Assembly: GCA_031276875.1 (NCBI GenBank)
Contig: JAISMG010000027.1
Coordinates: forward strand, 1-32,123
DNA from: Candidatus Peribacteria bacterium
Lineage (GTDB): Bacteria; Patescibacteriota; Gracilibacteria; Absconditabacterales; Absconditicoccaceae
DNA: 32,123 nt
Direction: 5' to 3'
The translations under genes and the position numbers were made by a program. Numbering within the stretch: the first letter of the stretch is position 1; every line of letters starts with the position of its first letter. Below are positions 1,748 through 31,049 of this stretch, piece by piece. The notes under the pieces were generated by a model, which saw only the letters and a program-made list of their open reading frames with translations, was not told the origin of the DNA and ran no database searches.

Positions 1748-3229
1748 ATGAAAAAAAAACCTTTAGTTAGTATTGTAATGGGCAGTATTTCCGACAAAAA
1801 AATAATGGAAAAAGCTGCAGTCTTTTTTGGGGAAATAGGTGTCCCCTTTGAAATGAGTGTGCTATCCGCTCATAGAACACCCGATGAGACAGTAAAATTT
1901 GCAAAAAATTTGAACTCTCAAGACATTCAATATGTAATTGCTGGAGCTGGAATGGCTGCTCATTTAGCAGGAGTCATCCAGTCAAATGCACCTTTTGTAA
2001 GTGTATATGGGGTTCCTATTGGTGAAACAGCATTTAATGGTATGGAAGCACTGCTTTCTACCGTTCAAATGCCTCCTGGTGTTCCTGTCGCTACCGTTGG
2101 TGTTGATGGAAGTTTAAATGCTGCTATTTTGGTAGCGAAAGAACTTTCCAAATCTGACAAAATAATTCGTCACCATCTTGAACAGTACTTTGCTACACAA
2201 AAAATGAAAGTTCTTAATGCCAATAAACAATTAGAAAGAACATATTATCGTGGGAAAGTTAATTATCCAACAAATACTGTTCCGTACACACTATGGCAAA
2301 CAAATTTTGATTGGGGTAAACAATATGTTGGGAAAGTTAGAGATGTTTATTTTATCTCCAACGAGAGATTAGTAATGATTACTACAGACCGCATTTCCTC
2401 TTTTGATGTGGTACTTCCTGAAGCTATTCCCCATAAAGGACAAATTCTCAATCAAATATCTACATTCTTTTTAGATGCAGTATCCGATATTTGTCCAATA
2501 TGGAAAATAGCAACACCACACCCAATGATAATGATTGGATATCAATGCAACACTTTCCCTGTTGAAATGATTGTTCGTGCATTCCTTGCTGGTAGTTCTT
2601 GGAAGGACTACAAAAATGGAAAGCGAACTAAAAGTGGCGTTATAATCCCAGATGGGATGAAGGAAAACGAAAGATTTTCTTCATCAATTATTACTCCAAC
2701 AACAAAAGCTGGAGAAGGTGAACATGACGAAGATATTTCTCGTGAAGAAATCATCAATCATGGACTAGTATCAAAAGAAGATTATGAAATCATGGAACAA
2801 TATTCGTTGGCTTTATTCCAACGAGGACAAGAAATTGCTTCCAAAAGAGGATTAATCCTCGTTGATACCAAGTACGAATTCGGCTGGCGTATGGAAAATG
2901 GTAAAAAAGTCATTTACTTGATTGACGAAGTTCATACTCCTGATAGCTCGCGTTATTGGTACGCAGATACGTATGAGGAACTCTTTGAAAAAAGAGAACC
3001 ACAACGACAGTTGTCCAAAGAATTTGTAAGGGAATGGTTAATGGACAACGGATTTCATGGTAAAGAAGGGGAAATTATCCCTGAAATAACGCCAAAGATA
3101 GCAAACGAAATCAGTCAACGATACATTGAGCTGTTTGAAATATTAACTTCTCAATCATTTGAAAAAATGACAACAACTAATCTCCTTTCCGAGATTAAAA
3201 ATGTCATTGTTACAAACTATCTGGATTAG
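1748..3229 (+). CDS. purE-purC: PurE-PurC fusion: N5-CAIR mutase / SAICAR synthetase
   Basis: A 493-residue two-domain purine biosynthesis enzyme. Residues 1 to about 150 are PurE, which forms CAIR: VMGSISDKKIMEKA, the SAHRTPDE active-site segment and AGAGMAAHLAGVI are visible. After a linker (about 151-172), residues 173-493 are PurC, which condenses CAIR with aspartate using ATP: GKVRDVYF, ITTDRISSFD, HKGQILNQIS, RAFLAGSSWKDY, ILVDTKYEFG and IDEVHTPDSSRYW. Fusing the two would pass CAIR directly between active sites (inference). The domain order is PurE then PurC, the reverse of the animal PAICS enzyme. No other pur gene lies nearby. The gene has 31 glycines and no UGA, and its own promoter, leader and terminator, which is compatible with acquisition, although other housekeeping genes here also use few UGA codons. 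Confidence 0.95.
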   Translation: MKKKPLVSIVMGSISDKKIMEKAAVFFGEIGVPFEMSVLSAHRTPDETVKFAKNLNSQDIQYVIAGAGMAAHLAGVIQSNAPFVSVYGVPIGETAFNGMEALLSTVQMPPGVPVATVGVDGSLNAAILVAKELSKSDKIIRHHLEQYFATQKMKVLNANKQLERTYYRGKVNYPTNTVPYTLWQTNFDWGKQYVGKVRDVYFISNERLVMITTDRISSFDVVLPEAIPHKGQILNQISTFFLDAVSDICPIWKIATPHPMIMIGYQCNTFPVEMIVRAFLAGSSWKDYKNGKRTKSGVIIPDGMKENERFSSSIITPTTKAGEGEHDEDISREEIINHGLVSKEDYEIMEQYSLALFQRGQEIASKRGLILVDTKYEFGWRMENGKKVIYLIDEVHTPDSSRYWYADTYEELFEKREPQRQLSKEFVREWLMDNGFHGKEGEIIPEITPKIANEISQRYIELFEILTSQSFEKMTTTNLLSEIKNVIVTNYLD

Positions 3230-7025: not shown

Positions 7026-9596
7026 ATGCTAAACCTTCACGCCATCTACTACCGCAATATCTGACCCTTTGAAGACAAAGAATGCTCCCTTACGTTTAAT
7101 CAAGGGAAATTTCTCATCAAAGCCCCCATTGGAAGCTGAAAATCTTTCCTCTTTTTTGATGGACCTACCTATGCACTCTATAGAACCGCCAATAGAAATA
7201 TGCTCAATATCCAGAGTACCGAAGGAGAAATAAGTCTGATTTTTTCCGTTGATGAACAATACTACCTAATAAAAAGACTTCTAAAAACCGGAAAAAGCAA
7301 AGACAGTTGCAGTAGCCAACTCTTTCAAGTCATTCTGAACGAAGTGAAGAATCCAGATAATAGCGAAATCTTTACTGGATTCTTCGGCTCCGCCTCAGAA
7401 TGACTTCTCCAACGAAACACCAACATCATCCACGAAATCGCAAACAATCCCGCATTTCAACTTGAGGAAATCGTGATGAAAAATGAAACTGACCTGCAAC
7501 AAACCCTTGACCAATTACTCCCCCCAAAACCCGTTTTCCTTTCGACTATTTTTCTCCTCCAAGACGCAGACAATATCTTTGAACTCCAGCCTGCTGAAAG
7601 ATTGACCGTTTTAAAAAACGTCTTTGGACTACTCGGTATCGACGAAGCAAAAGAACAAGTCCAAGACAAAAAAAGAGAAATCTCCTACAAACTCAAAGCC
7701 TTACAAGACCATTCCCACCAAGACACCAGATTGAGAAAACTTTTGAAACAACTCCACAACGACTACATTAACATCAGTAGCATTCCCCTCTGACACAATC
7801 ATAGTAGCGTTTCCCCCTGACAAGGGGGAGGGAGCAAAGCGGAAGGGGGTTTGTGGCAAAAAAACTCCGCCTTCTTCACCGAAATCGAGCCCTTCTTTGA
7901 CCAAATCACTCTCAATGATTTCACCCTGAACGGACTTGATATTCAGTTTTTTCTTTCTCTTCAAGAACATCTCCAAACCGAAGAAAAATCTCTCCTTTCC
8001 AAACACACCAGCAAATCTCATCTCGAACAACAAATCAACGAACAAACCCAATACATCGCCCAGCAAGAACAAGAGAAAAAAAAGCTGATTGCCAACATCG
8101 CCCAGCTTGACCAACATATCGCCAGCATTGATACCAGTAAAATTCAGCAATTGAAATACGAAAAAACCAAGCAGTACGAAGCACAGCAGGCTTTGGAAGC
8201 CGAAGTCCAACACATCACCATTCCTCTGGATACAACAATAGTAGCGTTTTCCCCTGATAAAGAGGAGGGAGGACACTGGGCGAAGCGAAGGGAACGGAAG
8301 GGGGTTTCTCTCGCAGAACTTATCACCCTCATCCAAACCCTCAAAGAACGCTGAAAAGACCTCACCAACCAACTGCAACAAGCCCAACTCCAACTCAAAA
8401 ACCTTGAACTTGAAGCCAAAAACCAACAAATCAAACTTGACCAACTCCAGCAAGCAAAAAAAAGACTGGCAGACTTTGAAGTAAACATCACCCAACAAGC
8501 CACTTTTTTCTGTAAAAAAACCTGAAGCAATTGCCAATATATCAAAATCATCAATAAACAGCATTTTGACCAATTGGAAAAACAGAAAACTACATTGAAG
8601 ATGGAAATTGAACAATTGGAAATCCCTCTGACGAAGGAGGAAATAGGAGGAACGAATACAGACAATATATGTAGGGACGGGGCTTGTACCCGTCCGAACG
8701 ACGAAGCCGTTATCCAACAAATCCAACACCACAAACAGCAAATTGAAAACATCAAAACCTTTCTCACCAACCTTGACTACAAATCCCGAGAAGAAAAATA
8801 CGAACAAAAAAACCGCATCCAAACCACCATCAACCAACTTGACCAAACCATTATGAAATTGGAAGCCGAAACCCAAAAATTACAAGACTACCAACAGCAA
8901 AAAACAGCTTTTCAAACTTCTTTAGACAATATCCAACAACAAATCGCACAGGCCGAAACCACTAAAAAAAAGCTGAATGCAGACCACGACCAACTCCAAC
9001 AGCAACTTCAATCCCAGCCTTTGGAAACACTCAAAACCCAATTGCAAACCGTAGCAAATTTCTTGCAAACTGTTCACGATATTCAGCAACTTATCGCAGA
9101 CGCCACCGCGAACAAAAACCTCATCAAAGACTTACAGCAACAAGAGAAACTACTGATGAACTTATATACCATCTTGAGTAAAGAAATTCTCCTCATCGCT
9201 CTGGATGAATATTTGCCCGTTCTGAGTGAGATTATCAACAGTTTTTTGGTACAAGTCGTAGCCTATCAAATCTCAATGAAAATCACTGAAACCGCAGAAA
9301 AACTGGAATTGGAAGCGAAAATCTATGATGAAAAAGGAGAAAGAGAAGTGAAAAGTCTGAGTGGTGGACAGAGAACGATTTTGAAGCTGGTGCGAATGCT
9401 GGCGATTTCATCATATTTGCATACACCGCTACTCTTTTTGGATGAAACGATTAACAATTTAGATACCGAAACCGTTGGGAAAGTCAGCGAAATGCTCAAT
9501 AATTTTGTGAAGCAAAGGACGATGAAATTTTATACCGTTACCCACAATACGGAAATTCAGGAAATGGACATTTGGGATAGTGTGGTGGAAGTATAA
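7026..9596 (+). CDS. SMC/Rad50/SbcC-like ATPase with in-frame palindromic insertions
   Basis: An 856-residue ABC-type chromosome or DNA-end processing ATPase. The N-terminus reads LHAIYYRNIGPFED, like the SbcC/Rad50 NFGPF start, then Walker A GSGKS at residues 36-40 in which Gly38 is encoded by UGA (7137-7139). A long glutamine-rich coiled coil follows, with CKKTGSNC (residues 496-503) near its middle, a possible but non-canonical zinc hook (CX6C rather than CXXC). The C-terminal lobe has the ABC signature SLSGGQRT (about residue 777), Walker B PLLFLDETINNLD and the H-loop FYTVTHNTE. Seven UGA codons are in frame. At least four GC-rich palindromic repeat elements (7328-7405, about 7786-7851, 8224-8311, 8623-8706) sit inside the reading frame. 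No SbcD-like nuclease gene is adjacent; the preceding genes are the membrane paralogs, so the role could be repair or something specific to this block. Confidence 0.88.
7328..7405. mobile_element. Palindromic repeat element A, in frame inside the SMC-like gene
   Basis: A 78-bp imperfect palindrome: AGTCATTCTGA (7328-7338) matches the inverse of TCAGAATGACT (7395-7405), and GAAGAATCCAG (7346-7356) the inverse of CTGGATTCTTC (7375-7385). The same element lies in an intergenic region at 27502-27585. Its length is 26 codons, so the frame is kept, and it contributes one UGA glycine (7401-7403). Confidence 0.75.
7786..7851. mobile_element. Palindromic repeat element B, in frame inside the SMC-like gene
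   Basis: The core TCCCCCT (7812-7818) pairs with AGGGGGA (7823-7829), flanked by AATCATAGTAGCGTTT on the left and GCGGAAGGGGGTTT on the right. The same flanks occur in element C. It brings two UGA codons (7791-7793, 7818-7820) that would be stops in the standard code. Borders are approximate. Confidence 0.65.
8224..8311. mobile_element. Palindromic repeat element C, in frame, sister of element B
   Basis: It shares CCTCTG, AATAGTAGCGTTTTCCCCTGA, GAGGAGGGAG and CGGAAGGGGGTTTCTC-type segments with element B 430 bases upstream, with a longer right half. Both copies are entered after an encoded Ile-Pro-Leu. Borders are approximate. Confidence 0.65.
8623..8706. mobile_element. Palindromic repeat element D, in frame inside the SMC-like gene
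   Basis: After another CCTCTGAC (encoding Pro-Leu-Thr) comes a stem GGACGGG (8675-8681) / CCCGTCC (8689-8695) with loop GCTTGTA. This TGTAGGGACGGGGCTTGTACC-type repeat looks different in core from B and C but has the same left border. It encodes a Gly/Arg/Cys-containing stretch unlike the surrounding Gln-rich coiled coil. Confidence 0.55.
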
Positions 9597-26338: not shown

Positions 26339-27409
26339 ATGATGAAAAAAACAACACTAATACGAACGTTAAGCGTTCTAGCCATAGGAGGAATAGTGCT
26401 ATGGTGAGCCAAAAGTTTAGCAGGCGGGGAGATGCATATTCAGCATAAAGCGGTGTGTAGAGCCATACTTCCTGCCAATGCTGTTTGGAATACAGCTCTT
26501 AATAAGACAGGAGATGTAGCACTTGTAGACCAAACAGAGACGAGTCATAATGTTTGGGAACCAGACGCAGGAGTAGCTACTTTTAGTGGTGATTATCGAG
26601 ATGGAGGATGTACGTTTAGTTGTGCAAGTAATTACAATTGGAATGGAAGTAGTTGTGAAGCAGCAAATATATGTGATATGAGTGTAACATGTAATGAGCC
26701 AGACATTACAATAGGAAGTTTTACGATAAAAGCATGTAATGTAGGTGCTTCAACGGCAGGAACCGGCGCATCTTCTTACGGATGTTACTTCCAGCGAGGA
26801 AATAACTATGGATTTGCAAACTCAGGAAGTATTGCTACAAGTAATAGTTTAGTACCTAATGCTTCTAGTTATGGCCCTTTACCATTGTCTTATTATAGTG
26901 GGTCTAACTTTATTACAGAACCTGGAGTAAGCAGTAGTAGTAAGTATGACTATTGGATAGGTGCTCAGAATAACAATTTGCGATGAGGAAGTGGGGATAT
27001 ACAAGCTAATGGACGAGATAGTGGAAATGCCAGAACAGAGAGACAATGACCGTGTCCAGATGGTTATCATGTACCAAGTGCCGGAGAATGGAGTGGGGTA
27101 GTGATGACACGATGGAATGCAGTAGGAAGTGGAGGAGCATCTATAAATACAAGTAGTTGATTGCCTTACTTTAATGATTCAAGCAAAGCTACTCAATTCA
27201 GGAACGACTTCCGTCTACCGTATGCAGGGTACCGCAATTACGATTCGTCCGCGTCGGTCAATTATCAGGGCAGCTACGGCCGCTACTGGTCATCCAGTCC
27301 GCGTTCTACCTACGCTCGTAACCTGAGCTTGTATTCGTCTTACGTGTACGCGTACGACAACTACAATCGCGCGTACGGCTTCTCTCTGCGTTGTTTCCAG
27401 AATTCCTAG
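26339..27409 (+). CDS. Secreted FISUMP-domain protein, probable DGR variable (target) protein
   Basis: A 356-residue exported protein. The signal segment TLIRTLSVLAIGGIVLWGAKSLAGG contains a UGA glycine; three more UGA codons occur (NNLRGGSGD, ERQGPCPDG, TSSGLPYF). The N-terminal part has Cys-rich CTFSCASNYNWNGSSCE. The C-terminal half is a Fibrobacter succinogenes major paralogous (FISUMP) domain: CPDGYHVPSAGEWSGVV, FRNDFRLPYAGYR, GRYWSSSP and the terminal RAYGFSLRCF. From about 27200 to the stop the DNA abruptly changes to about 53% GC (hand count for 27241-27420, against 37% for 26881-26940), with TCG, GCG, CGC and TAC codons rare elsewhere. Tyr, Ser, Asn, Asp and Ala alternate with fixed residues, as in DGR variable regions. 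ATGATG gives two equivalent starts. Likely role: surface ligand binding, possibly host adhesion (inference). Confidence 0.85.
27200..27409 (+). other. Probable DGR variable region (VR)
   Basis: This covers AGYRNYDSSASVNYQGSY, GRYWSSSPRSTYARNLSLYS and SYVYAYDNYNRAYGFSLRCF. The fixed frame (GYR, GRYWSSSP, ARNLS, R-x-x-GFSLRC) is that of C-terminal DGR variable regions in CPR proteins, while the interspersed Tyr, Asp, Asn and Ser codons are of the kind adenine mutagenesis of AAY codons yields. The template repeat is not in this window, so A-specific changes cannot be shown here. Confidence 0.65.
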
Positions 27410-27438
27410 CTTGACCCTTTGGCTGTTCGCTTTCCCAT

Positions 27439-27456
27439 TCGCTTTCATTAAAGCGA
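27439..27456 (+). other. Hairpin/cruciform downstream of the variable region
   Basis: TCGCTTT (27439-27445) pairs with AAAGCGA (27450-27456) around a four-base loop CATT. A short-stem, four-base-loop hairpin just downstream of the VR is a known target-recognition element of DGRs (described in the Bordetella phage system). The preceding bases 27410-27438 would then include the initiation-of-mutagenic-homing site. Confidence 0.55.
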
Positions 27457-27477
27457 GCAGAGCGAGCGTTCCGCTAT

Positions 27478-27625
27478 CGTCATTCTGAGCCCGTCCCACG
27501 TGTCATTCTGAGGAGCGAACGTAGTGAGTGAGGAAGAATCCAGACATCTAACACACACTGGATTCTTCGCTCCGCTCAGAATGACTGACCATCACGTGTC
27601 ATTCTGACCCCGCAGTCCTGCGGGG
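27478..27625. mobile_element. Cluster of palindromic repeats, including a copy of element A
   Basis: GTCATTCTGA (27502-27511) and GGAAGAATCCAG (27532-27543) mirror CTGGATTCTTC (27558-27568) and TCAGAATGAC (27576-27585), the same palindrome as 7328-7405. Further GTCATTCTGA starts occur at 27479 and 27598, and CCCCGCAG/CTGCGGGG (27608-27625) forms another hairpin. This is a nested or tandem array of the element. Confidence 0.75.
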
Positions 27626-30217: not shown

Positions 30218-30228
30218 TTATCAGATTT

Positions 30229-30239
30229 TTTTTATCTTA
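30229..30239 (+). promoter_or_regulatory. Recurrent TTTTTATCTTA motif before tsf
   Basis: The same 11-mer occurs at 22580-22590 and 26316-26326. It ends 15 bases before the tsf ATG. Confidence 0.35.
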
Positions 30240-30254
30240 TTAGAAATTATCTTT

Positions 30255-31049
30255 ATGAAAATTGATATGAACCTTATTAAAGAGCTGAGAGATACGACCT
30301 TTGCTCCGTTAGGAGACTGTAAGTCAGCTCTAGAAGTAGCAGAAGGAGACCTTCAAAAAGCTATAGAAGTATTGAAAGAAAAAGGTATAGCCAAAGCAGG
30401 AAAAAAAGCTGACCGTGAAACCAATGAAGGAATGGTGAAAATTGAAACCAAAGAGGGAAAAACGGTTGGGTTGAAATTACTCTGTGAAACGGATTTTGTT
30501 GTGAAAAACGAACATTTCCAAACCTTATTCCAAACGATTATGGATAAACTTTTTACGGTGCAAGAAAATGTAAATAGTTTTGAGGCACTTGCTCCTGAGT
30601 TGCAAACGGAAATTAACGGATTGATTACGGATTTTGTAGGAAAAATCGGTGAAAATGTGAAAGTGGGAGCGGTATTGATTACCACAGAAAACGTATACGG
30701 ATACAATCATCCCGGAAATAAAGTTGCATCAGTGGTATATTATACGGGAAGCGAAGAAATTGCCAAAGAACTTGCTCTCCAAGTCGCTGCGATGAACCCA
30801 ACCTATCTTACCTTTGACGAAGTATCAGCAAGTGAAAAAGAAACCCTAAAAGCAAAATTCACTGAAGAACTCAAAGCAGCTGGGAAACCTGAAGCAATGA
30901 TTGAAAATATTGTGAAAGGGAAACTGGATAAAGCTTTTGCTGAAGAGGTGCTTTTGGAACAAGAATATATTCGCGACTGTGCACAAAAAGTAAAAACTTT
31001 GCTTACTGATGGGTTTACCATTACCAAATTTGTCAGATTTGCTATCTAA
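30255..31049 (+). CDS. tsf: Translation elongation factor Ts
   Basis: A 264-residue guanine-nucleotide exchange factor for EF-Tu. The N-terminal UBA-like domain reads MNLIKELRDTTFAPLGDCKSALEVAEGDLQKAIEVLKEKG (family: LRExTGAGMMDCKKAL); the usual TGAGMM is TTFAPL. The core shows ETDFVVKNEHF, corresponding to the conserved CETDFVARNxxF, and the later ELALQVAAMNPTYLTFDEV. Start at the ATG 30255, with TTTTTATCTTA at 30229-30239. Length is near the norm. It follows the membrane gene by 37 bases and precedes the S6-S18 fusion gene by 93. Confidence 0.96.
   Translation: MKIDMNLIKELRDTTFAPLGDCKSALEVAEGDLQKAIEVLKEKGIAKAGKKADRETNEGMVKIETKEGKTVGLKLLCETDFVVKNEHFQTLFQTIMDKLFTVQENVNSFEALAPELQTEINGLITDFVGKIGENVKVGAVLITTENVYGYNHPGNKVASVVYYTGSEEIAKELALQVAAMNPTYLTFDEVSASEKETLKAKFTEELKAAGKPEAMIENIVKGKLDKAFAEEVLLEQEYIRDCAQKVKTLLTDGFTITKFVRFAI

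Follow-up and report, generated by a model that had tools for sequence, protein, structure and literature searches.

The window analysed here, a stretch of DNA of 32,123 nucleotides, is contig C9 of a 1.23-Mb assembly (G000) that consists of 38 contigs and is 67.8% complete. On its forward strand, at 26339–27409, lies a gene for a FISUMP (Fib_succ_major) protein, an open reading frame of 356 amino acids read with genetic code 25, in which four TGA codons specify glycine. The use of this code suggests that the host, a tiny uncultured bacterium, is one of the Gracilibacteria-like Patescibacteria. The FISUMP domain claimed in the first-pass annotation is borne out by profile searches; Pfam PF09603 matches the protein with an E value of 3.7e-10, and NCBIfam TIGR02145 does so with 3.9e-9, yet below its curated cut-off. 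The domain is C-terminal, with positions 62–185 of PF09603 matched at 27041–27394 (+), and the protein indeed ends in RAYGFSLRCF, as the same annotation had it. The N-terminus, MMKKTTLIRTLSVLAIGGIVLWGAKSLAGG, looks by eye like a signal peptide, and the protein is probably secreted and lectin-like. The leader and N-terminus of the gene are common to FISUMP paralogs on contigs C28 and C22. Two structure-model runs for the FISUMP domain were of low confidence (pLDDT 47 and 51), and the FISUMP alignment matched nothing in a PDB sequence search. No relative of the window protein was found among the viral contigs searched, three of which carry a short variable-region motif, none of them with a FISUMP relative. 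A Sortase-domain protein (Pfam) encoded at 556–1548 on the reverse strand of the window is possibly relevant to surface anchoring.

The 3' end of the gene has the features of a variable region (VR) of a diversity-generating retroelement (DGR), placed at 27215–27405 (+) by its VR family, the template-adenine pattern and adenine depletion. Its ends are approximate and were set from pairs of template repeats (TRs) and VRs in the same genome and its relatives; a codon-by-codon alignment covers the core, 27215–27397. A rise in GC from 37% to 53% had been noted at this end of the gene. The upper figure holds (53.3% in 27197–27406), whereas the lower one is the average of the whole window (36.6%), the remainder of the gene standing at 40.8%, that is 41% and not 37%. 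Only about 0.2% of 210-nt segments of the window reach the GC of the VR, and all of them start at 27180–27430. The change of codon choice that had also been claimed is confirmed: among residues having a synonymous A-ending option, A-ending codons fall from 107/208 upstream (51%) to 3/39 (8%) within the final 64 codons (p=1e-7), while GC3 goes up from 24% to 69%. This loss of A-ending synonymous codons would explain the GC jump. In a scan of the window's genes that left out the open reading frame 30218–31049, the 60-codon stretch poorest in A-ending codons was the VR (1/36), compared with 11/47 for the lowest stretch in any other gene of the scan.

The window VR belongs to a family of eight homologous VRs on eight contigs (C9, C29, C20, C15, C21, C31, C28 and C2). 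A whole-genome search found no near-copy elsewhere in the window and revealed the seven sister VRs, which are 71–86% like the window VR in DNA. Judged by synonymous differences, the family appears to fall into two sub-groups, {C9, C29, C20, C15, C21} and {C31, C28, C2}, which possibly reflect two templates. Across the eight genes, A-ending synonymous codons drop from 50% upstream (915/1843) to 6% in the VRs (20/340; p=5e-61), and TGA-glycine from 43/322 to 0/55 (p=0.001), p-values that are too small to the extent that the VRs are paralogous and the column and codon counts, here and in the comparisons below, are not fully independent. Another FISUMP gene whose tail resembles a VR (L074, G000:C37:15260–15703) is absent from the DNA matches of the window VR and is not cognate to the template described next; its tail possibly represents a third template class.

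The genome also has a DGR cassette, on contig C13, where a MutS_I-like (MSL) gene, a template repeat (TR1), a bAvd gene and a DGR-type reverse transcriptase (RT) gene follow one another. The MSL product matches PF01624 (E 9e-11), and bAvd matches PF22296 above the cut-off (E 5e-13) and the PHROG family ‘Avd protein of DGR’ (E 7e-20); a PDB sequence search with this Avd gave no match. The RT matches RVT_1 and carries the motif LPIGNLTSQ, kept in relatives, and its best PDB match is 8ub7, the Bordetella phage DGR RT, at E 3e-47 against 2e-15 for group II RTs. TR1, at C13:27670–27861, differs from the VR on C19 at 11/43 adenines and 9/149 other bases (p=8e-4) and from that on C10 at 14/43 and 16/149 (p=1e-3), a clear adenine excess that nevertheless makes up only about half of all mismatches. 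With RT, Avd and a TR having adenine-biased VRs all present, the cassette qualifies as a DGR, and TR1 is the template of the two FISUMP genes on C19 and C10, not of the window gene. Contig C13 ends within a FISUMP gene and shares an exact 119-base overlap with C10, into which that gene appears to continue. The other RT in the genome, on contig C22 (L001:1270–2769), has retron-like best matches below curated cut-offs and was rejected as a second DGR RT; a 405-aa open reading frame lies upstream of it. No second DGR RT or Avd was found in the 38-contig assembly.

The first-pass annotation had proposed that a genome-wide search might reveal an adenine-mismatched copy of the VR next to a DGR RT. 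Such an RT was found on C13 with a template repeat, TR1, that is not cognate to the window VR, and the cognate template, here called TR2, did not turn up in any of the 38 contigs, not even when the query was an A-rich sequence inferred from the VR alignment by placing AAC/AAT at hypervariable codons. VR pieces of 70 nt, scanned with tolerance for adenine changes against C13 and further contigs, revealed no TR2 either. FISUMP genes stand at or near the ends of many contigs (C10, C13, C19, C20, C21, C29 and C31), which suggests that FISUMP repeats broke the assembly, and such breaks may explain the missing template.

Searched against its own and the family genomes, the inferred TR2 matches only the known VRs, TR1 and a locus in genome G020, a relative of another genus of the same family, besides weak matches in G001, G005 and G027. 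The TR of G020 is found at E 2e-28, in a search that was partly guided, the query having been built from VRs; with the window VR itself as query, it is not among the matches listed at E<=0.001. It belongs to an intact homologous cassette that also encodes a MutS_I-like protein, an Avd-like protein and a DGR RT. The two VRs of G020 differ from this TR at 19/50 and 23/50 adenines, but at other bases only at 2/145 (p=4e-11) and 5/145 (p=1e-11). When the template codons are taken from G020 alone, 19 of the 20 codons that are AAN in its TR prove variable among the VRs of C9, C29, C20 and C21, compared with 13/40 other codons (p=2.4e-6). In the window gene these 20 predicted template-adenine codons span 27230–27376 (+) and start at 27230, 27236, 27260, 27263, 27275, 27281, 27302, 27308, 27311, 27320, 27326, 27332, 27341, 27347, 27353, 27356, 27359, 27362, 27365 and 27374. 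In the G020 target (L046:7831–14001, G020:C4), both VRs are internal, not C-terminal: they lie in two consecutive FISUMP domains of a single code-25 frame that exceeds 2,000 aa and has InlB-type repeats after these domains. This frame contains 87 TGA glycines, all of them outside the two VRs.

Taken on this sequence evidence, the window gene is with a probability of about 0.88 a remote DGR target. That it is a target, as the first-pass annotation had suggested in proposing a trans-acting DGR, is strongly supported, and an RT, Avd and TR do exist on C13; TR1, however, is not its template, and present-day action in trans on the window gene is what we infer. In the mechanism we propose, TR2 would spell fixed residues almost without adenine and changeable residues as AAC/AAT codons. 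It would be transcribed and then copied by an adenine-error-prone DGR reverse transcriptase, and the cDNA would have replaced the 3' end (~27215–27405) of the window FISUMP gene, and likewise that of its seven sister genes, each on a different contig. The resulting proteins, probably secreted and lectin-like, would differ at about 20 positions. TR2 would reside in the third of the genome that the assembly lacks, perhaps accompanied by a second cassette, or perhaps served by the RT of C13, and the system would still be rewriting the window gene. By analogy with known DGR targets, the products may serve at the cell surface to bind ligands or neighbours that change.

The same origin of the VRs is assumed by an alternative that differs only in whether the window gene is still served: the DGR behind the VRs has since lost its template and perhaps its cassette, and the gene is a relic target no longer rewritten. 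We consider this fairly unlikely. The absence of TR2 from the assembly would agree with it, but with the assembly only 67.8% complete and FISUMP genes at contig ends, a repeat-like TR2 may simply be lost. The C15 copy is frameshifted, whereas the C9 and C29 frames are intact. Non-adenine drift between the copies amounts to 8–20%, and some VRs have therefore not been rewritten recently; the VRs of the present TR1, however, drift similarly (9/149 on C19 and 16/149 on C10). A DGR RT match was obtained in 0/7 same-genus genomes searched, 6/7 of which have FISUMP genes, and in Treponema denticola leftover remote targets are retained after loss of the core DGR (PMC4891356).

Far less probable is an origin of the VRs by ordinary paralog divergence on a lectin-like surface under positive selection or with recombination, no DGR being involved. 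FISUMP proteins do occur in genus relatives where no DGR RT was detected. Nevertheless, the variable codons coincide with the AAN codons of a true TR, that of G020, and A-ending codons are nearly purged from the VR. Moreover, hypervariable and near-fixed sites alternate, a pattern that gene conversion would not produce. When C9 is compared with C20, differences amount to 24.4% in the gene just upstream of the VR, and within the VR to 45% (18/40) at template-adenine sites and 7.7% at all others. The VRs of C9 and C29, a pair closely related over their whole length, show 33 differences in ~183 nt, divided among the three codon positions as 19, 8 and 6, compared with 13 differences in 240 nt upstream (3, 5 and 5). 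Such interleaving of near-identical and hypervariable sites is what mutagenic retrohoming from one template produces, and not ordinary divergence or plain gene conversion. The weakest alternative, that TR1 directly templates the window VR, has in its favour the shared genome and homology to the inferred TR2 (75% over 141 nt), but it is refuted for the present VR by 54 non-A mismatches, next to 15 at A, over 179 nt, compared with 9 and 11 over 192 nt for the VR on C19.

A hairpin after the stop codon had been put forward as the DGR target-recognition site. The hairpin is present (27439–27456; a 7-bp stem and 4-nt loop, TCGCTTT CATT AAAGCGA), starts 30 nt past the stop and has P ~0.003–0.013 against mononucleotide shuffles. 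In phage DGRs, the hairpin has 7–10 bp and a GRNA loop (PMC3240598), a consensus that the CATT loop does not fit, and no comparable hairpin was found after several other VRs of the family. This role was rejected for lack of conservation among the VRs.

The depletion of A-ending codons is found in templates as well as in VRs. It is equally strong in TR1 (1/39) and the TR of G020 (2/38), weaker in that of G033 (4/23) and not clear in that of G019 (14/36). From these few loci we infer that residues meant to stay fixed have to be spelled without adenine in a template, and that the rise in GC follows. A literature search of incomplete coverage found no statement of such a rule. This footprint, to which the absence of TGA-glycine also belongs, may be useful for detecting orphan VRs, and a codon-usage scan for loss of A-ending codons at the C-terminus is suggested for finding other targets. 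In the widest form of this proposal, which we hold about as likely as not, a single code-25 Gracilibacteria-type cell would run a DGR network with several templates that acts in trans on about ten dispersed FISUMP surface genes. Except in the codons that are to vary, these templates would be purged of adenine, TGA-glycine included, and remote or orphan VRs would be recognisable by codon usage alone, with no need to find the template.

FISUMP targets, remote targets, CPR DGRs and Avd/MSL accessories are all known already. The FISUMP domain has been reported among DGR targets in human-microbiome datasets, where, as here, Fib_succ_major is C-terminal in a secreted or lipoprotein target and is the part predicted to be diversified (PMC4159848); the present case concerns a code-25 Patescibacteria-type genome and a dispersed multi-gene family. 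A close parallel is the TvpA-type DGR of Treponema denticola, with several scattered paralogous targets carrying VRs, some of which have no matching TR in that genome; these targets are reported to have C-type-lectin-fold domains (PMC4891356). They are of FGE-sulfatase type and the accessory there is HRDC (PMC4891356), in contrast to the FISUMP targets, code 25 and MSL accessory found here, where there are at least two template classes, one of them missing from the assembly. Like clade 2 DGRs, the system is cellular and of a kind common in CPR bacteria, although clade 2 CPR targets usually have no recognisable conserved domain, whereas the window target has a FISUMP domain; the large survey concerned states that targets far from the RT would escape its detection (PMC8144416). 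Both Avd and MSL accessories of DGRs have been published (PMC10053308). Of 80 RT-bearing GTDB loci, 42 have a FISUMP-like ORF close to the RT (E<1e-3), a count that likely includes TRs read as protein and so exceeds the number of true targets. A literature search for FISUMP together with DGR found no paper, and one for Gracilibacteria with DGR yielded few mentions. The significance of the window gene is that a remote DGR target was recognised from sequence alone and then backed by the template of a relative, and that a FISUMP family in a recoded CPR-type bacterium is thereby linked to targeted hypermutation.

Two further features of the window deserve mention. REP-like inverted-repeat units of the form TCATTCTGA...TCAGAATGA occur at 7330–7403 and at 27480–27607, just downstream of the VR gene, and also on further contigs of the same genome. 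At 1748–3229, PurE-type AIR carboxylase and SAICAR synthetase domains (Pfam) are fused in one 493-aa protein.
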